Positions 5,602-14,063 of a stretch of DNA of 64,000 nucleotides are shown here, in pieces. This DNA is from Solimonas flava DSM 18980 (GTDB lineage: Bacteria > Pseudomonadota > Gammaproteobacteria > Nevskiales > Nevskiaceae): positions 62,001 to 126,000 of the forward strand of contig NZ_AUFV01000011.1 of the NCBI RefSeq assembly GCF_000426685.1, given 5' to 3'. The notes under the pieces were generated by a model. The model did not search any database. It worked only from the letters and a program-made list of their open reading frames with translations, and was not told the origin of the DNA. Position 1 is the first letter of the stretch. Each line of letters opens with the position of its first letter. A program made the translations under genes and the position numbers.

Positions 5602-5687
5602 CCATCTGGCGGCCGCCCGGACCGCCTCCAGCCCGACCCCATCATGAAAAAATCAATTTAAACAAGGAAAAAGGCGCTTCTTTCGAC

Positions 5688-6652: not shown

Positions 6653-8323
6653 ATGCAGCTTCGCGCCCTCAGCGACACGCTCTTCGTCTCCGCCCAGATC
6701 CAGGTTGCCGACCTGCCGGCCGTCGCCGCGCAGGGCGTGCGTACGCTGATCTGCAACCGGCCGGACGGCGAAGGCGCCGATCAGCCGACGCACCAGGAAC
6801 TCGCCGAGGCGGCGGCCGCCGCCGGTCTGCGCCTGCATTACCTGCCGGTGGTCTCCGGCCGCGTCGACGACGACACCGCCGTGCTCTTCGGCAAGCTGCT
6901 CGAAACGGCGGACCGGCCGATCCTCGCGTTCTGCCGCACCGGCATGCGCTCGACGACGCTGTGGGCACTGTCGCAGGCCGCGCGACAGCAACCGGTCGAG
7001 GCGCTGGTGCAGCGCGCGCACGAGGCCGGCTACGACCTCGGCGCGATCGGCGATCGTCTCAACCGCTGCGGCGCCGGCGCGGCGACGCGCACCGACGCGC
7101 GGCACACGGTCGTGATCGTCGGCGGCGGCGCCGCCGGCATCGCCACCGCTTCGAGCCTGCTCGCGCGCGACCCGAAGCTCGACATCGCCATCATCGACCC
7201 CGCCGACACGCACTACTACCAGCCCGGCTGGACCCTGGTCGGCGCCGGCGTGTTCCGGCCGGAGACGACGGCGCGCAGCATGGCGCGGCTGATCCCGCGC
7301 GGCGTGCACTGGATCAAGGCCGCGGTCGCCGGCTTCGAGCCCGAGAACAAGGTGGTGATCCTCGAAGGCTGCCGCGTCGTGCGCTACGAGATGCTGGTCG
7401 TCTGCCCGGGTCTCAAGCTCGACTGGACGGCGATTCCCGGCCTCGCCGAGAGCCTCGGCCACCACGGCGTCACCTCCAACTATCGCTACGATCTCGCGCC
7501 CTACACTTGGAAGCTGGTGCAGGAGCTGCAGCGCGGCCGCGCGCTGTTCACGCAGCCGCCGATGCCGATCAAATGCGCCGGCGCGCCGCAGAAGGCGCTG
7601 TACCTGTCCTGCGACCACTGGCGCCGGAACGGCCGCCAGGGCGCGATCAAGACCGAGTTCCTCAGCGCCGGTGCGGTGCTGTTCGGCGTCGCCGACTACG
7701 TGCCGGCGCTGATGGAATACATCCGCCGCTACGAGGTCGAACTCAGCTTCGGCCACACGCTGACGGCGGTCGACGGTCCGCGCCAGGTCGCGCGCTTCGC
7801 GCGCACGCGGCCCGACGGCAGCCAGGAAACCGTCGAGCGCGAGTTCGACATGCTGCACGCCGTGCCGCCGCAGACGGCGCCCGACTTCATCCGCAGCAGC
7901 CCGCTCGCCGATGCCGCCGGCTGGATCGACGTCGATCCGGCGACGCTGCAGCACCGTCGCTACGCCGACATCTTCGGCCTCGGCGACGCCGGCAACATGC
8001 CGAACGCCAAGACCGCCGCCGCCGCCCGCAAGCAGGCGCCGACCGTCGCGCACAACGTCATCGCCGCGCTCAAGGGCCGGCCGCTCAACGGCCGCTACGA
8101 CGGCTACGGCTCCTGCCCGCTGACCGTCGAGCGCGGCAAGATCGTGCTCGCCGAGTTCGGCTACGGCGGCAAGCTCAAGCCGAGCTTCCCGGCCTGGCTG
8201 CTCGACGGCCGCAAGCCGACGCGCGCCGCCTGGCTGCTGAAGGAACGCCTCCTGCCGCCGCTGTATTGGGAGGCGATGCTCAAGGGCCGCGAGTGGCTGG
8301 CCAAGCCGGAGTTGGTCGGCTGA
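6653..8323 (+). CDS. DUF442 phosphatase/sulfurtransferase-like domain fused to sulfide:quinone oxidoreductase
   Basis: 556 residues in two parts. Residues 1-110 form a DUF442/TIGR01244-type domain with the Cys loop CRTGMRS (94-100). Residues about 150-556 form an FAD-dependent SQR of the SQOR/type II kind. This part has GGGAAG (156-161) for FAD, a VCPGLKLDW stretch, the Cys region IKCAGAPQKALYLSCD, GLGDAGNMPN near the second FAD contact, and a late GYGSCPLTV. SQR oxidises sulfide at the membrane, passes electrons to quinone and makes persulfide, the PDO substrate. The N-terminal domain may transfer or release sulfane sulfur; that is inference. The gene follows pdo by 25 bp and its stop overlaps the tauE start. 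Confidence 0.9.
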   Translation: MQLRALSDTLFVSAQIQVADLPAVAAQGVRTLICNRPDGEGADQPTHQELAEAAAAAGLRLHYLPVVSGRVDDDTAVLFGKLLETADRPILAFCRTGMRSTTLWALSQAARQQPVEALVQRAHEAGYDLGAIGDRLNRCGAGAATRTDARHTVVIVGGGAAGIATASSLLARDPKLDIAIIDPADTHYYQPGWTLVGAGVFRPETTARSMARLIPRGVHWIKAAVAGFEPENKVVILEGCRVVRYEMLVVCPGLKLDWTAIPGLAESLGHHGVTSNYRYDLAPYTWKLVQELQRGRALFTQPPMPIKCAGAPQKALYLSCDHWRRNGRQGAIKTEFLSAGAVLFGVADYVPALMEYIRRYEVELSFGHTLTAVDGPRQVARFARTRPDGSQETVEREFDMLHAVPPQTAPDFIRSSPLADAAGWIDVDPATLQHRRYADIFGLGDAGNMPNAKTAAAARKQAPTVAHNVIAALKGRPLNGRYDGYGSCPLTVERGKIVLAEFGYGGKLKPSFPAWLLDGRKPTRAAWLLKERLLPPLYWEAMLKGREWLAKPELVG

Positions 8324-9141
8324 TGCCGCAGCACCTGCTGCTGCCGCCGGCGCTCGGCGCCGTGGTCGGGCTGATCCTGGCGCTGACCGGCGCCGGTGGC
8401 GGCATTCTCGCCGTGCCGCTGTTGGTGTTCGGGCTCGGCCTGTCGATGACCACGGCGGCGCCGATCGGCCTGCTCGCCGTCGGCCTGTCGGCCGCCGTCG
8501 GTGCGGTCATGGGCCTGCGCCAGGGCATCGTCCGCTACCGCGCCGCGGCGCTGATCGCGACGATCGGCGTCGTCGTCGCGCCGCTCGGCCAGTGGCTCGC
8601 GCATCGTCTGCCGAACGCCCCGCTGGCGATCGCCTTCGCCGCCGTGCTCGCCTACGTCGCCGTGCGCATGCTGCGCCAGGCGCACATGCATCTGCGCACC
8701 GGCGTCGCGCCGGAGCCGCGCAACATGCGCCCCTGCGTCGTCGACCCGCGCGACTCGCGGCTGCACTGGACGCGCCCCTGTGCGCGCGCGCTGGCCGGCA
8801 CCGGAGTGGTATCCGGCCTGCTGACCGGCCTGCTCGGCGTCGGCGGCGGCTTCGTCATCGTGCCGGCGCTGAACCGCAACACCGATCTCGACACCAAGAG
8901 CATCATCGCGACCTCGCTCGCGGTGATCGCACTGGTGTCGATCGGCAGCGTCGCCAGCGCCACCTGGTCCGGACAGATGCAATGGACGCTCGGTGCACCG
9001 TTCGCCGGCGGCGCCGTGCTCGGCCTCGTCGCCGGCCGCCTCGTCGCGCATCGCATCGCCGGCCCGCGCCTGCAACAGGCCTTCGCCGTCGTCGCGCTGA
9101 TCGCTGCGGCGCTGCTCGTCTGGCGCGCCGTGCGCGGCTGA
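8323..9141 (+). CDS. TauE/SafE-family membrane permease (probable sulfite/sulfonate exporter)
   Basis: A 272-residue polytopic membrane protein with two similar halves. Each half has the GxGGG motif of the family: LTGAGGGILAVPLLVFGLG near the N-terminus and LGVGGGFVIVPAL in the second half. The ATG overlaps the sqr stop (TGATG). In this operon its likely job is to export sulfite made by PDO, an inference from context. The stop codon TGA (9139-9141) is the first three bases of the adjacent Tn7-like element. The reconstructed empty site also has TGA here, so the protein is not altered. Confidence 0.88.
   Translation: MPQHLLLPPALGAVVGLILALTGAGGGILAVPLLVFGLGLSMTTAAPIGLLAVGLSAAVGAVMGLRQGIVRYRAAALIATIGVVVAPLGQWLAHRLPNAPLAIAFAAVLAYVAVRMLRQAHMHLRTGVAPEPRNMRPCVVDPRDSRLHWTRPCARALAGTGVVSGLLTGLLGVGGGFVIVPALNRNTDLDTKSIIATSLAVIALVSIGSVASATWSGQMQWTLGAPFAGGAVLGLVAGRLVAHRIAGPRLQQAFAVVALIAAALLVWRAVRG
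9134..9138. repeat. target site duplication, left copy (GCGGC)
   Basis: The five bases GCGGC directly precede the left terminus of the Tn7-like element and recur directly after its right terminus at 11997-12001. Five bp is the duplication length of Tn7. The match extends three further bases (TGA) on both sides, so an 8-bp duplication cannot be wholly excluded. Confidence 0.75.
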
Positions 9142-9146
9142 TCCGA

Positions 9147-9268
9147 GCAATTAAAGTCGTAGACTTGCGAAGTCGATAAATCAACAAGTTAGCTTTGTCG
9201 AAGCCAGCCACAAAGTCGAGGACTCGCCCACGACGTGTAAGAGACCGATGCAATTAAAGTCGTGGACT
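9147..9268 (+). repeat. left-end repeats of the Tn7-like element (three spaced TnsB-type sites)
   Basis: Copies are GCAATTAAAGTCGTAGACT (9147-9165), a diverged CACAAAGTCGAGGACT form (9207-9224) and GCAATTAAAGTCGTGGACT (9250-9268). The first and third agree at 18 of 19 bases. Spacing of about 43-60 bp recalls the three separated TnsB sites in the Tn7 left end, whose sites as I remember them contain CAATAAAGTC. TnsB binding is inferred. Confidence 0.75.
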
Positions 9269-9310
9269 GACAGCATTACCACCCAGCGCTTGATGTGGTG
9301 GCGGGTCACA

Positions 9311-10030
9311 TCATTGCGAGATTGGCCTGTGGTCGATACACAGAGTGCGGGTATAGCCGCGTTCCGGATCTGCAAAATCTTCCGAATGCATGCGCACGTG
9401 CCGTCCGTCAATCACGGTATCGGCCTGCCCCCTCTCGCAAACCAACTCTTGTGACGCGGAGGGTTGGACGGCAGCAACGAGCAGCGCTTCGCAGGCTTGC
9501 ACGAAACGTGCATCGGCGGCCTCGCCACGCGCACGATCATTGACATGGAGGCGCAGTGTGAGCCGCTTGACTGCTTTCTCATCACCCTCGACGTAGGACG
9601 CGAGATTGTCGGCAAGGATGCCGTCATCAAGCTTCAGCATCGTGGATCCCGCCCTCCATTCGCCGCCGACGATGGGATGGTAGTCACCGGCGCCTAAACC
9701 CAGACCAGAGAGAAATGCCGTTGCTTGGTACGGACTCCAGCCGAGTTCAGCAGGGACCGTCGGCGGGTACTTCTTCTTCCTCTGTCGCACCTTGACGTCC
9801 GTGATGATTTTGCGGATGTCCGCGCGGCTCTCTGGGCGGAACAGCCCCACATCGCGCTTCCAGCGCCGTAGGCCTTCGAGGTCGAGACGGAAGCTCAAAA
9901 CCGTCTGCCACAGTGCATATCGACGCAGCGACTTGTCTCTTAGGACCCAGGCAGTGCCAGCGAGCGTTTTTTCGTAAAGCATGAGCACACTAACGACGTA
10001 CAGATACGGAAGAAAAGCCAGCGACAGCAC
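9311..10030 (-). pseudogene. C-terminal part of a split membrane protein, cargo of the Tn7-like element
   Basis: 239 residues if started at the GTG at 10030, but the frame stays open back to a TGA at 10184-10186, adding segments such as VALSLSIIVGLLLVGHSVYEA. The protein would open with two hydrophobic helices and continue as a soluble, charged domain with no motif I recognise (KYPPTVPAELGWSPYQA, then VGGEWRAG). The upstream gene ends at 10144 in another frame, and its helices lead naturally into this frame. The two are probably one protein of about 450 residues broken by a -1 change inside 10147-10183. It could be a real indel, a sequencing error or programmed frameshifting. Confidence 0.55.
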
Positions 10031-10143
10031 GACGGGAATGCAAAATTCGCGGAGATTCGCGAGGTTTGCGAATCCCTCGAGATCGCCCGCTGCTTCGTAG
10101 ACGCTGTGGCCGACTAGCAGAAGGCCGACGATGATCGAGAGGC

Positions 10144-10629
10144 TCAGCGCGACCTTATGGCTGGTGCGTATTCCGGCTTTCCCTCACTGAAAATCGCGAC
10201 GCCGCCGATCAAGGTTAAGAGCGGAGTGAGCAGCAATTCGACGGGAAGCGAAAAGCTGTATAGCTCGGCGACGAAGGTAATAAGCACCGTGACGTTCACC
10301 GTGTCGCGAATGGTGTTTCTGAAGTAGGTCTTTTCCTCGGTGACGCGATTGGCATCAAGTAGAGTCACGAACGCAAAGGGGACTGCCCACATCACTGTGG
10401 TTTTCAGATTGTCGAGGTGCCAGAAACCAAGCCAGATCAGCAGGCGTACGCACAGGACGATCCAGAGCGCTGCCCACAACATGACGAGCATGATATGCCT
10501 GACAAAAAAGGCCCTGACGAGATGAGCCAGGCTGCGCCGGATCTCGCCACTCTTGTCGCGGGCCAGAGTCCAGACAAAGAAGATCGTCAGCCAAATCATG
10601 GCCGCAATCTCACGATTGCTCAGTTCCAT
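10144..10629 (-). CDS. N-terminal part of a split membrane protein, cargo of the Tn7-like element
   Basis: 161 residues with four or five hydrophobic helices (about 8-23, 46-70, 77-92, 113-126, 129-148). It begins MELSNREIAAMIWLTIFF and ends FSEGKPEYAPAIRSR. I recall similar membrane proteins of unknown function in scattered proteobacteria that carry a comparable KPEYAP stretch and continue directly into a further membrane segment, but I cannot name the family. The downstream frame (9311-10183) provides that continuation. Codon use is less GC-biased than the flanking chromosome. No catalytic motif is visible. The slippery-looking heptamer GGGAAAG lies on the minus strand at 10183-10177 inside the overlap of the two frames. 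Confidence 0.6.
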   Translation of the reverse strand: MELSNREIAAMIWLTIFFVWTLARDKSGEIRRSLAHLVRAFFVRHIMLVMLWAALWIVLCVRLLIWLGFWHLDNLKTTVMWAVPFAFVTLLDANRVTEEKTYFRNTIRDTVNVTVLITFVAELYSFSLPVELLLTPLLTLIGGVAIFSEGKPEYAPAIRSR

Positions 10630-10751
10630 CGCAGCACAATCCGATGTAAGGTCGCGAGCCCCCTATTTCTGACTGACTCGAGCCGACAAGGATTTTTCAC
10701 TGCGCAAGAGATACGCAGATCCGGCTTTAGTGGAGATGTTTCTGGTCATAC

Positions 10752-11123
10752 CTACTCACACGCGACCTCACCGGTAATCGGCCCGTATGGAGTAAAGCAA
10801 GTGCAGGCACTCCCATTACCCTGGCCAGGCGGCGCGCGGCCTAAGCTGCAACTGCCACGCTCCGTTTCGCAAGTCGCGTTGTCGCAAAGCCCACATTCAT
10901 CGTCGATCTCGTAGCGAAGCTTCTTCGCCATTACCAACGTAACAACGCGCGTGAAAGAGCAACGCGGCGCGTCGCTAACTTCGTAGTCACACTGATCCTT
11001 AATCGCATCCTTGCCAGTTCCACCTCTGGCCATTCGCTGCATTTCTTCGACGGTGCAGTCCGCCGATGCTACAAGTGGAAGGAACAGCAGTCCTATGAGC
11101 ATATTGAGCGTCCCGATCTTCAT
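10752..11123 (-). CDS. cysteine-rich exported protein of unknown function (element cargo)
   Basis: 123 residues. A signal peptide (MKIGTLNMLIGLLFLPLVASA) is predicted, with cleavage before Asp-Cys. The mature part has about eleven cysteines in a loosely repeated pattern (DQC, PRC, DEC, GLC, ATC, GSC, ACTC, VAC), consistent with several disulfides in the periplasm or outside the cell. No family was recognised. It starts 13 bases after the preceding cargo gene, so the two are probably co-transcribed. The next 122 bp before the membrane-protein gene hold nothing I can identify. Confidence 0.65.
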   Translation of the reverse strand: MKIGTLNMLIGLLFLPLVASADCTVEEMQRMARGGTGKDAIKDQCDYEVSDAPRCSFTRVVTLVMAKKLRYEIDDECGLCDNATCETERGSCSLGRAPPGQGNGSACTCFTPYGPITGEVACE

Positions 11124-11136
11124 CGTCGCTCCTCGT

Positions 11137-11715
11137 TCAGTTTATGCGACACAACGCCGCGAGCGTCGCTGAATAGGTCCTGGGGCTGCCCAATTTCTGA
11201 GGGCAGGACTCACCAGTTACAGAGATCGTGCCGTTGGGGCACATGGCGGCTAAGGCGCGGAAGGCATCGTCGCGTGCCTCGCTGCACCCTTCACGCCAAA
11301 TGTCGTCCTCCGAGATATATGCAGATCGCAGCAGCGCTCCACTTCTCCCATTCGAACTTACGGGGTGTGGCTCGCGGCTCTCTCGATCGAGGAACTGCTG
11401 GAGAGTATCTCTAACGCAGCCGGTGTAGACCTGCATCACCGGTGCGAGATCTTGATTGTTCGTCACACGACTCAGGTATCCAGCCAAATTACTCTTCGCT
11501 ACCTCGACCGAAGCGTTAGCTGAAGCCTCTTTCCAGCTCTTGATAGCGGCGTCCAGGTTCGCCTTGAGCGACGCCGATTGAATGCTCCCGGACCCGCAAA
11601 GAGCTTGTATCCCTTTGATCTCTTCTTCCGTAGGTAGTGCAGTAGACGCGTACGAAGAAGTAGCGACGACAAGAAGAACCCACGCGAGGCTTAACTTGCG
11701 AGTGACAATGCTCAT
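11137..11715 (-). CDS. exported protein of unknown function (first cargo gene of the element)
   Basis: 192 residues from the ATG at 11715 (MSIVTRKLSLAWVLLVVATSSYAS), chosen because it gives a clean signal peptide and has GGGGA about 6 bases upstream; a start nine codons earlier is possible. The mature protein is mostly helical and polar, with five cysteines after the signal region (ALC, TGC, EGC, AMC, ESC) plus one near the C-terminus (LCRIN). No family was recognised. It lies next to the right end of the Tn7-like element and is read away from glmS, behind a candidate promoter at 11742-11769. The shared export signals and cysteines with the next gene suggest joint action in the envelope. Confidence 0.6.
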   Translation of the reverse strand: MSIVTRKLSLAWVLLVVATSSYASTALPTEEEIKGIQALCGSGSIQSASLKANLDAAIKSWKEASANASVEVAKSNLAGYLSRVTNNQDLAPVMQVYTGCVRDTLQQFLDRESREPHPVSSNGRSGALLRSAYISEDDIWREGCSEARDDAFRALAAMCPNGTISVTGESCPQKLGSPRTYSATLAALCRIN

Positions 11716-11741
11716 GACAATCCCCAATCCCCGAGGAATCA

Positions 11742-11769
11742 ATCATAGCCCGGCAAGAAAAGCCGGCAA
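11742..11769 (-). promoter_or_regulatory. candidate sigma-70 promoter of the element cargo
   Basis: On the minus strand TTGCCG (-35) and TATGAT (-10) are separated by 16 bases, ending 26 bp upstream of the first cargo start. The spacer and -35 contain the inverted pair GCCGG/CCGGC (11750-11766), which could form an operator or an early hairpin. Confidence 0.45.
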
Positions 11770-11930
11770 TCTAATTGCATTGTCCGCGCTCGAATCTTCC
11801 ACGGTGATATGTGAATTGGAGCACATGCGCATGGGGAAATGGGAAATCGCTAAAAAGTCGGGAAAGCTCCTGACAGGGCAGAGTTGCGGCCCGCCTGCGC
11901 AAATCACGAGTGGGCTGCAGTGCGCTAACA

Positions 11931-11990
11931 GTCCACGAATATATTTGCGAGTCTCCAAATATATTTGCCTGTCTACGAAATTAATTGTCG
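11931..11990 (-). repeat. right-end tandem repeats of the Tn7-like element (three TnsB-type sites)
   Basis: Three exactly 20-bp units lie back to back: GTCCACGAATATATTTGCGA, GTCTCCAAATATATTTGCCT and GTCTACGAAATTAATTGTCG. They are the reverse orientation of the left-end sites. Crowded sites at the glmS-proximal end and spaced sites at the far end is the Tn7 end plan. The stretch from 11770 to 11930 holds no gene I can support. Confidence 0.8.
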
Positions 11991-11996
11991 GAAACA

Positions 11997-12001
11997 GCGG
12001 C
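11997..12001. repeat. target site duplication, right copy (GCGGC)
   Basis: GCGGC directly follows the ACA terminus of the element and repeats 9134-9138. After it the chromosomal sequence TGAGCGCG continues to the glmS stop. Confidence 0.75.
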
Positions 12002-12016: not shown

Positions 12017-12055
12017 TCACTCCACGGTGACGCTCTTGGCGAGGTTGCGGGGCTG
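12017..12055 (-). other. attTn7-type recognition region in the 3' end of glmS
   Basis: The last codons of glmS (QPRNLAKSVTVE) are the conserved target that the Tn7 protein TnsD reads. An insert with Tn7-like ends sits just downstream, so this stretch probably guided insertion. The exact boundaries are my estimate. Confidence 0.5.
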
Positions 12056-13861
12056 GTCGACGTCGGTGCCGCGCAGTACGGCGACGTGATACGCGAGCAG
12101 CTGCAGCGGCACGGTATAGACCAGCGGCGCCTGCAGCGCCTCGATGTGATCCGGCATGGTGATGACGTCGACGCCGTCGGCCGGCTCGATGCCGGTGTCC
12201 GGATCGGCGAACACGAACAGGCGGCCGCCGCGCGCGCGCACTTCCTGCAGGTTCGACTTCAGCTTTTCGAGCAGGGCGTTGTTCGGCGCCACGGCGACCA
12301 CCGGCATGTCGTCGTCGACCAGCGCCAGCGGGCCGTGCTTGAGCTCGCCGGCAGCGTAGGCCTCGGCGTGGATGTACGAGATTTCCTTGAGCTTGAGCGC
12401 ACCTTCGAGCGCGACCGGGAAGGTCGGGCCGCGGCCGAGGAACAGCGCGTGGTGCTTGTCGGCGAAGCGCTTGGCCCACTCGCGGATCTGCGGGTCGAGC
12501 TTGAGCGTGTGCTCGACCAGTTCCGGCACCTGCGCCATCTGCCGCGCGTAGACGGCGATCGTGCGACGGTCGAAACCTTTGCACTGCGCGATCGCCAGAC
12601 CGAGCATGCCGAGCGCGGCAAGCTGGGTGGTGAAGGCCTTGGTCGAGGCGACGCCGATCTCGGGGCCGGCCCGCGTCATCAGCACGAGGTCGGCCTCACG
12701 CACCAGCGAGGATTCCGGCACGTTGCAGATCGCACCGGTGGCGATGTAGCCGAGCTTCTTGGCCTCGCGCAGCGCGGCCAGCGTGTCGGCGGTCTCGCCG
12801 GACTGCGAGATCGCGAGGAACAGCGTGCCGGGCAGCACGACCGGATCGCGATAGCGATATTCGCTGGCGACCTCGACGGTGCACGGAATGCGCGTGCCCT
12901 GCTCCAGGTAGTAACGCGCGACCAGCCCGGCGTGATAGCTGGTGCCGCAGGCGACGATGTGCACGCTCTGCACCTGCGGCAGGATCTGCGCGGCGCGCGG
13001 GCCGAGCGCGGCTTCGAGCACGTGGTCGCCGAGCAGGCGCTCGGACAGCGTGTCGGCGAGCGCGCGCGGCTGCTCGTGGATTTCCTTGAGCATGTAGTGC
13101 GCGAACTCGCCGCGCTCGACCGCATCGGCCGACAGCGAGGACTCGTGCACGCGCCGCTGCACGACGGCGCCGCTGCCGTCGTAGATGACGACGCGGTCGC
13201 GACGGATGTCGGCGACGTCGCCTTCTTCGAGGAACTGGAAGCGGCGCGTGACCGGCAGCAGCGCCTGCACGTCGGAGGCGACGAAGTTCTCGCCCGCGCC
13301 CGCTTCACCGAGCCCGATCACCAGCGGGCTGGCGATGCGCGCGACGCAGATGCGGTCCGGATGTAGGGCGTCGAACACGACGATCGCGTAGGCGCCTTTC
13401 AGGCGGCGCACGGCCTGCTGCACGGCCTCGGTCAGGTCAAGGCCGCCGCGCACGAACTCGTGGATCAGATGGGCGATGACCTCGGTGTCGGTCTCCGACG
13501 AGAACACATAGCCCTTCGCGCGCAGTTCGGCCTTGAGCTCGACGTAGTTCTCGATGATGCCGTTGTGAATCAGCGCGATGCGGTCGCCGGAGACGTGCGG
13601 GTGCGCGTTGGCCTCGGTCACGCCGCCGTGCGTCGCCCAGCGCGAATGGGCGACGCCGAGCGGGCCCGCGGCCGGCTGCAGGCGCAGCTTGTCTTCGAGA
13701 CGGGCGACCTTGCCGACGGCGCGGCGCAGGTGCAGCCCGCCGTGGGCGTCGACGAGAGCGACGCCGGTGGAGTCGTAGCCGCGATATTCGAGGCGGCGCA
13801 GGCCCTCGATCAGGATCGCACTGACATCACGCGCCGCGATGGCGCCGACAATTCCGCACAT
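12017..13861 (-). CDS. glmS: glutamine--fructose-6-phosphate aminotransferase (isomerizing)
   Basis: A 614-residue cytosolic enzyme that makes glucosamine-6-phosphate from fructose-6-phosphate and glutamine, the entry to UDP-GlcNAc, peptidoglycan and LPS. The N-terminal glutaminase domain starts MCGIVGAI with Cys2 as nucleophile and has LEYRGYDSTGVAL. The two SIS domains carry CGTSYHAG, SQSGETADT and the C-terminal AKSVTVE. It is close to the E. coli length. glmU lies about 1.6 kb away on the same strand, separated by an unrelated plus-strand gene. The 3' end is the attachment site of the Tn7-like element. Confidence 0.98.
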   Translation of the reverse strand: MCGIVGAIAARDVSAILIEGLRRLEYRGYDSTGVALVDAHGGLHLRRAVGKVARLEDKLRLQPAAGPLGVAHSRWATHGGVTEANAHPHVSGDRIALIHNGIIENYVELKAELRAKGYVFSSETDTEVIAHLIHEFVRGGLDLTEAVQQAVRRLKGAYAIVVFDALHPDRICVARIASPLVIGLGEAGAGENFVASDVQALLPVTRRFQFLEEGDVADIRRDRVVIYDGSGAVVQRRVHESSLSADAVERGEFAHYMLKEIHEQPRALADTLSERLLGDHVLEAALGPRAAQILPQVQSVHIVACGTSYHAGLVARYYLEQGTRIPCTVEVASEYRYRDPVVLPGTLFLAISQSGETADTLAALREAKKLGYIATGAICNVPESSLVREADLVLMTRAGPEIGVASTKAFTTQLAALGMLGLAIAQCKGFDRRTIAVYARQMAQVPELVEHTLKLDPQIREWAKRFADKHHALFLGRGPTFPVALEGALKLKEISYIHAEAYAAGELKHGPLALVDDDMPVVAVAPNNALLEKLKSNLQEVRARGGRLFVFADPDTGIEPADGVDVITMPDHIEALQAPLVYTVPLQLLAYHVAVLRGTDVDQPRNLAKSVTVE

Positions 13862-14063
13862 GCGCAGGATTCCGGGAAATGGGAGGCCGGTCGGCCGGCC
13901 GAAGCGCGCATTCTACCGGCTGCGCGCCCGGCGCCGCGGACCGCCGCCCGGCCCGGGCGGGGCGGCCGGCCGCGGATTCGTCCGAACGGTGTATGGGGGC
14001 CGCGAGGCCGACGGCATACGATGTCGACGGGGAGACAGGGGCCATCGGCCCGGGAGCACGGAC

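Follow-up and report, generated by a model that had tools for sequence, protein, structure and literature searches.

A probable Tn7-family insertion without recognisable tns genes beside glmS in Solimonas flava DSM 18980

Analysis of a 64,000-nucleotide stretch of the Solimonas flava DSM 18980 genome (contig NZ_AUFV01000011.1, positions 62,001 to 126,000; hereafter the window, whose own numbering is used throughout) identified a 2,858-bp insert between tauE and glmS that is very probably a non-autonomous element of the Tn7 family. The insert lies 20 bp from the stop codon of glmS, is flanked by a perfect 5-bp duplication, and carries imperfect inverted repeats and inward-facing TnsB-like sites at its two ends; no tns gene is recognisable inside it. 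These observations support a Tns-less insertion of the Tn7 family at attTn7, most likely a stripped-down relic or passenger of that family and not a new kind of element. The features concerned are the following.

9139-11996: Tn7-type element without tns genes, 2,858 bp, opening TGATCC... and closing ...GGAAACA, recognised from its sequence, ends and sites
9134-9138: left copy of the 5-bp target duplication GCGGC, within the 3' end of the tauE coding region
11997-12001: right copy of the target duplication, GCGGC
9139-9164, plus strand: left terminal inverted repeat, tauE-proximal, Tn7-L type, starting TGA
11971-11996, minus strand: right terminal inverted repeat, glmS-proximal, Tn7-R type, starting TGTTTCC
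9148-9267, plus strand: dispersed TnsB-like sites of the left end, exact at 9148-9164 and 9251-9267, with a weaker one near 9206-9222 by eye
11931-11987, minus strand: right-end array, its three TnsB-like sites spaced 20 bp apart with starts at 11987, 11967 and 11947
8323-9141, plus strand: tauE/safE (Pfam TauE, 8.8e-46)
12017-13861, minus strand: glmS (Pfam SIS and GATase), whose 3' end determines the attachment site of Tn7

The distance from the glmS stop codon is within the range of about 20 to 25 bp downstream that characterizes the Tn7 family. Tn7 itself is published as inserting about 20 bp beyond the glmS stop codon and duplicating 5 bp (PMC2918618). The insert opens with the three bases that now form the stop codon of tauE (TGA); when the flanks are rejoined in silico they read ...GTGCGCGGCTGAGCGCGCC..., in which TGA follows GCGGC, so that tauE would still stop there. 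The insert has a G+C content of 56%, compared with 70 to 73% in its flanks. The boundaries are fixed by the duplication and the distance to glmS, because the inverted repeat alone does not define the edges: a local scan gave equally high scores to several pairs of the two ends that were shifted in register or used internal sites, and a score of 20 to one unrelated pair (9044/12096), above the 19 of the terminal repeat. An earlier interpretation made by a model from the letters alone (the sequence-only reading) had set these boundaries, and they proved exact to the base. The glmS-proximal position, the GCGGC duplication, the 26-base imperfect terminal repeats, the repeated internal sites in opposite orientation at the two ends, and the lack of tns genes in 2.9 kb, all of which it had described, were recovered as well. 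Its statement that the insert bears every outward mark of Tn7 holds for position, duplication, repeats and sites and fails at the left terminus, which is TGA and not TGT.

The outer 26 bases of the two ends match at 19 positions, a value equalled by 4 of 200,000 random pairs of 26-mers drawn from the window. Exact copies of the 17-mer CAATTAANNTCGTNGAC lie at 9148 and 9251 on the plus strand and at 11987 on the minus strand, and weaker copies lie at 11947 (two mismatches) and 11967 (four mismatches); the last counts as a site only by its 20-bp register, because three interior places of the insert also reach four mismatches. At up to three mismatches the insert holds four sites, compared with 0.19 expected from 100 base shuffles. 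Across the 4.46-Mb genome, places that match the 17-mer with up to two mismatches number four, three of them at the insert ends (two places for a reversed control pattern). A site matrix was built from nine right-end sites, none from the window: four of Tn7 on R721 and five of a Tn7-type element in CP031730, a record labelled as a Stenotrophomonas rhizophila plasmid. Scored at every position on both strands of the window, it placed 9148 (plus), 11967 (minus), 9251 (plus) and 11947 (minus) at ranks 2 to 5, all at the insert ends and facing inward. The arrays are asymmetric, overlapping toward glmS and dispersed at the far end, with the middle left site read by eye and two of the right sites weak; the published layout of Tn7 matches this arrangement (PMC11406308).

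Autonomy in this family takes TnsA, TnsB and TnsC together with a TniQ/TnsD selector, none of which is recognisably encoded by the insert. A tblastn search of the window with sixteen queries, twelve Tns/TniQ proteins from four Tn7-type elements and the four cargo open reading frames, gave no Tns match better than E 0.16. The host assembly is a draft of 27 contigs with 99% completeness; no TniQ in it exceeded the cut-off (two weak matches, none at E 0.001). A five-sequence TnsB profile, added because the Pfam model detects the TnsB of the CP031730 element but misses that of Undibacterium rugosum, found no Tn7-type TnsB in the genome. Because of these negative results inside the insert and in the genome, we class the insert as non-autonomous and not as a Tn7 transposon. 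The sequence-only reading had offered two possibilities, dependence on Tns proteins elsewhere in the genome or a deletion derivative; the genome-wide searches, which covered TniQ and TnsB but not TnsA and TnsC, speak against the former, and deletion is preferred. A second copy of the insert ends, for which it had proposed a search, was not found in the host draft genome. With no Tns found elsewhere in the host, the unit looks stranded at present. The sole Mu_transpos_C protein of the genome sits in what we read as a Mu-like prophage on contig C11 (48000-66000), which encodes MuA- and MuB-like proteins; this MuA-like protein was considered as a supplier of TnsB and rejected on account of its Mu-like neighbourhood. 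A helper in a congener (G003) was likewise rejected, since its TniQ adjoins TniB and a Mu_transpos_C-like protein, which we read as Tn402/Tn5053 type.

Comparison within the genus shows that the host is not alone in carrying such material. The glmS end is present in all 11 Solimonas genomes (host included), and Tn7-type traces at or near attTn7 were seen in 4 of the 11, again with the host, in the stretches of 3 to 13.5 kb examined. Besides the host, only its sister species S. variicoloris (G010), whose own element is damaged, has apparently kept tauE next to glmS, the best tauE match of the other nine lying elsewhere. In S. variicoloris, whose tauE and glmS are about 95% identical to those of the host, the flanks of the glmS site are on different contigs, both of which end inside its own insert. 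Its left end occupies the same target position, with 45 of 56 bases alike including the TGA start and the spacer, and then runs into sequence resembling an insertion sequence (IS) at the contig end (read by eye). At the right end only the outermost 26 to 30 bp are kept (23 of 30 alike) before unrelated DNA, beyond which translations read by eye suggest a degraded integrase of the integron type and, where another contig ends, part of an IS. Nothing beyond the ends is common to the sequenced interiors of the two elements.

Loss of tns genes near attTn7 is seen in another congener, G008 (contig C17, 4.6 to 7.1 kb), where TnsC and a TnsB missing its N-terminal region lie within 5 kb of glmS, with no TnsA match near glmS and no TniQ in the genome. 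A repeat array that appears by eye to be of a different site type lies just downstream of glmS in the same genome. In G005 (contig C20, 0.3 to 1.0 kb) a nearly whole TnsA lies about 10 kb from glmS, and no TniQ match was found in the genome; decay of tns genes was rejected in this case, since TnsA aligns nearly whole and TnsB is cut by the contig edge. Across the 58 genomes of the family, 15 have a TniQ match (13 above the cut-off), at least one of them (G003) of Tn402/Tn5053 type, and 13 have a TnsB-like match. The strict end pattern was found in the host only, an undercount, as the pattern misses the ends of S. variicoloris.

Related ends also occur outside Solimonas. In the GTDB species collection, TGTNNCCNNCAATTAANNTCGTNNAC is found in eight places: two in Undibacterium curvum, two in U. 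rugosum, one in S. variicoloris, and single sites in Vogesella, a metagenome-assembled genome and Periweissella, which may be due to chance. U. curvum has two right-end copies with three overlapping sites at a 20-bp period and a further right end 13 kb on; the right-end family CAATTAA..TCGT..AC, with its 20-bp period, is common to the host insert and the U. curvum glmS site by a TniQ reading frame. There the right end begins 1 bp after the glmS stop, closer than usual, and enters the TniQ frame. This frame has no apparent start codon and matches positions 9 to 142 of the 142-position TniQ profile, so the idea that it is badly truncated was rejected. U. rugosum has beside glmS a TnsD (Pfam PF15978) with TnsC-, TnsB- and TnsA-like neighbours and, by eye, another site type; two unpaired right ends of the insert's family lie beyond these tns genes, 9 kb or more from TnsABCD. 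Between the two lies an apparent type I restriction system, the whole forming a pile-up at attTn7. A further unpaired right end lies at about 20000 on plasmid 1 of Polaromonas sp. JS666, just upstream of an IS1182-family transposase gene; the annotation lists no tns genes within 20 kb. Viral contigs gave one end match in a wider search and nothing for the two-site right-end pattern.

Several results weigh against assigning the insert to the Tn7 family and against a history of tns loss. Termini in this family read 5'-TGT...ACA-3'; the right end conforms (TGT), but in both Solimonas elements the left end opens with TGA. Of the three right-end sites two are weak, with four and two mismatches. The top matrix score in the window falls on an AT-rich stretch at 5647, outside the element, and the terminal right-end site at 11987 is absent from the top 14 positions. 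The best matrix score of the element, 18.1, compares with maxima averaging 12.5, and reaching 20.0, in 60 composition shuffles of the element, which is AT-richer. Matrix scores are thus modest alone, and the case for Tn7 ends rests on position, orientation and spacing. No empty tauE-glmS junction is available among the 11 genus genomes, the S. variicoloris site being occupied, and no intact parent with both insert ends and tnsABCD was found in the genomes and collections searched. The only direct case of tns decay in the genus, that of G008, concerns an element whose ends differ by eye.

We favor an explanation in which a TnsABC+TnsD machinery would once have taken the 3' end of glmS as its target and placed the unit 20 bp downstream, right end toward glmS, with duplication of 5 bp, as the scar and the ends suggest. 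The tns block would later have been lost through an internal deletion, leaving a short cargo between the ends, and the unit would now be immobile unless Tns proteins of matching end specificity enter the cell. In the R721 copy of Tn7, tnsA starts some 134 bp in from the right end, so that one deletion between right end and cargo would suffice. Given a non-autonomous Tn7-family element, we rate loss by internal deletion slightly better than even, and we prefer it to mobilization in trans because a congener shows loss of tns genes near attTn7. The other possibility, that a tns-less unit, a natural mini-Tn7, was placed at attTn7 in trans by a Tn7-type element then resident in the same cell and since lost, seems doubtful to us, although it has evidence in its favor: the insert has the two end arrays and the duplication that mobilization in trans needs, no tns debris was found between the insert ends, and unpaired right ends of the family recur (two in U. 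rugosum, one on the Polaromonas plasmid). Yet the host has no second copy, and the searches brought up no other tns-less unit whose two ends match, the copies in Undibacterium being unpaired; the absence of the exact pattern from the 57 other family members counts weakly, since that pattern is blind to the S. variicoloris ends. Broader still, and in our judgment unlikely, would be a natural cargo-only lineage of short units with intact ends that spread among attTn7 sites via borrowed TnsABC+D, represented here with a compact three-gene module.

Ends from different Tn7-type elements piled up at attTn7 could also have come to flank unrelated DNA by chance. The attTn7 of U. rugosum has unpaired ends that by eye belong to more than one site type, and S. 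variicoloris keeps a right end cut short before unrelated DNA, both of which are in line with such a composite; however, the two ends of the host insert belong to one site family and the duplication is perfect, and we consider this origin highly improbable. A separate question, compatible with the favored origin, is age. The host and S. variicoloris elements could descend from one old insertion whose interior has since been exchanged or deleted in at least one of them, which we regard as a tentative possibility falling somewhat short of even. The target position is the same, both left ends start TGA, and the likeness of the left ends extends through the spacer, but the sequenced interiors are without likeness. 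The ends differ at 18 of 86 positions, compared with third-codon-position differences of 8% in tauE and 13% in glmS. This exceeds what is expected at 8 to 13% divergence (P 0.0001 to 0.027), and the excess vanishes at 15% (P 0.09) or 20% divergence; a probably non-coding flank at 13900-13999 differs as much, being 77% identical (up to 23% different) between the two species.

Among known systems, Tn7 itself (right end taken from R721, NC_002525) resembles the insert in its attTn7 position and 5-bp duplication, as published, and in having TnsB sites that overlap at the right end and are spaced at the left, with a related site sequence (ACAATAAAGTCTTAAACT against CAATTAAAGTCGTAGACT). The insert differs from it in lacking tns genes, in its 2.9-kb length, in its left terminus and in having three right-end sites compared with the four of Tn7. 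Tn6171 of Acinetobacter is described with a 5-bp duplication, four overlapping sites at the tns end and three separated ones at the other, a layout like that of the insert; its imperfect ends of 28 to 29 bp and its distance of 25 bp from glmS compare with 26 bp and 20 bp here, whereas it carries tnsABCDE-related genes and 36 genes in all (PMC8190619). The CP031730 element shares a right-end array of 20-bp period directly after glmS and differs in having TnsA, TnsB and TnsC and a larger cargo. In that plasmid record (CP031730.1) a full glmS is followed by the Tn7-type element, with genes annotated as mercury- and copper-related. The attTn7 islands of U. curvum and U. rugosum have right ends of the CAATTAAAGTCGT..AC family, like the insert, but these ends are unpaired, and the TnsABC and TnsD set beside glmS in U. 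rugosum goes with another site type (by eye). Laboratory mini-Tn7 likewise consists of ends and cargo without tns; it is engineered, whereas the insert is natural and has no known helper.

The insert shows a possible end state of a Tn7-type island, in which the tns genes are gone and the ends remain with a small cargo. The sequence-only reading called such elements rarely described, which is fair for the literature covered: no natural tns-less Tn7-like unit was described among the matches listed, from a collection that leaves out most subscription journals. The broken or unpaired Tn7-type remains at or near attTn7 in the genus and in Undibacterium lower the surprise. Nothing on Tn7-type elements of Solimonas was among the literature matches listed. 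The Tn7 surveys of Parks and Peters, cited in PMC3384475, may hold similar remnants. At least one large survey of Tn7-like elements required two homologues of Tn7 components per locus (PMC10293859); such a survey would miss tns-less units at attTn7 by design, because its search starts from tns genes. Searching for end arrays beside glmS would reveal how frequent tns-less units are, and any mobilization in trans. A mini-Tn7 lineage, if true, would parallel non-autonomous elements that exploit autonomous ones elsewhere.

The cargo comprises four open reading frames on the minus strand, which are probably three genes in one unit transcribed away from glmS.

9311-10030, minus strand: 3' part of a membrane-protein gene whose 5' part is in a different frame, corresponding to the C-terminal part of 427- and 440-residue plasmid proteins
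10144-10629, minus strand: 5' part of the same frameshifted gene, corresponding to the N-terminal part of the same relatives
10752-11123, minus strand: putative secreted cysteine-rich protein of 123 residues, signal peptide by eye, no relatives found in searches
11137-11742, minus strand: putative secreted protein of 201 residues (or shorter), signal peptide by eye, no relatives found in searches

No credible family for the cargo emerged from Pfam, PADLOC, PHROGs or NCBIfam, the few weak matches including Pfam matches below the cut-off, and a defence role is only a guess. The 201-residue protein was found only in its own genome among the 369 of a class sample and not in plasmids or viral contigs; the 123-residue protein was not found in plasmids, its other searches being of family libraries only. 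A PDB sequence search with two of the cargo frames gave nothing credible, and single-sequence AlphaFold models were too poor for use, with mean values of the predicted local distance difference test (pLDDT) of 43 and 39. An Rfam scan of the element returned nothing, promoter and terminator scans did no better than shuffles, and neither the element DNA nor its right-end sequence had a plasmid match.

The two membrane-protein parts align to consecutive parts of single proteins, one of 427 residues on a Salmonella IncHI2A plasmid and one of 440 residues on an Arcobacter plasmid, at about 29 to 35%. Relatives of this gene were found in four plasmid records for the 3' part and four for the 5' part (one marginal) and, besides the host, in 2 of the 369 class-sample genomes (one weak); phage records and viral contigs held none. 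Their surroundings are mobile-looking: in Salmonella and in G318 (the latter by eye) the relatives lie near integrase genes, and the Arcobacter relative adjoins an AAA ATPase gene and a DUF3800 gene. A GGGAAAG heptamer lies at the overlap of the two membrane-protein frames (10144-10180, minus strand). Programmed -1 frameshifting in this gene is conceivable, and a simple mutation, or an error of assembly at the frame break, is likelier.

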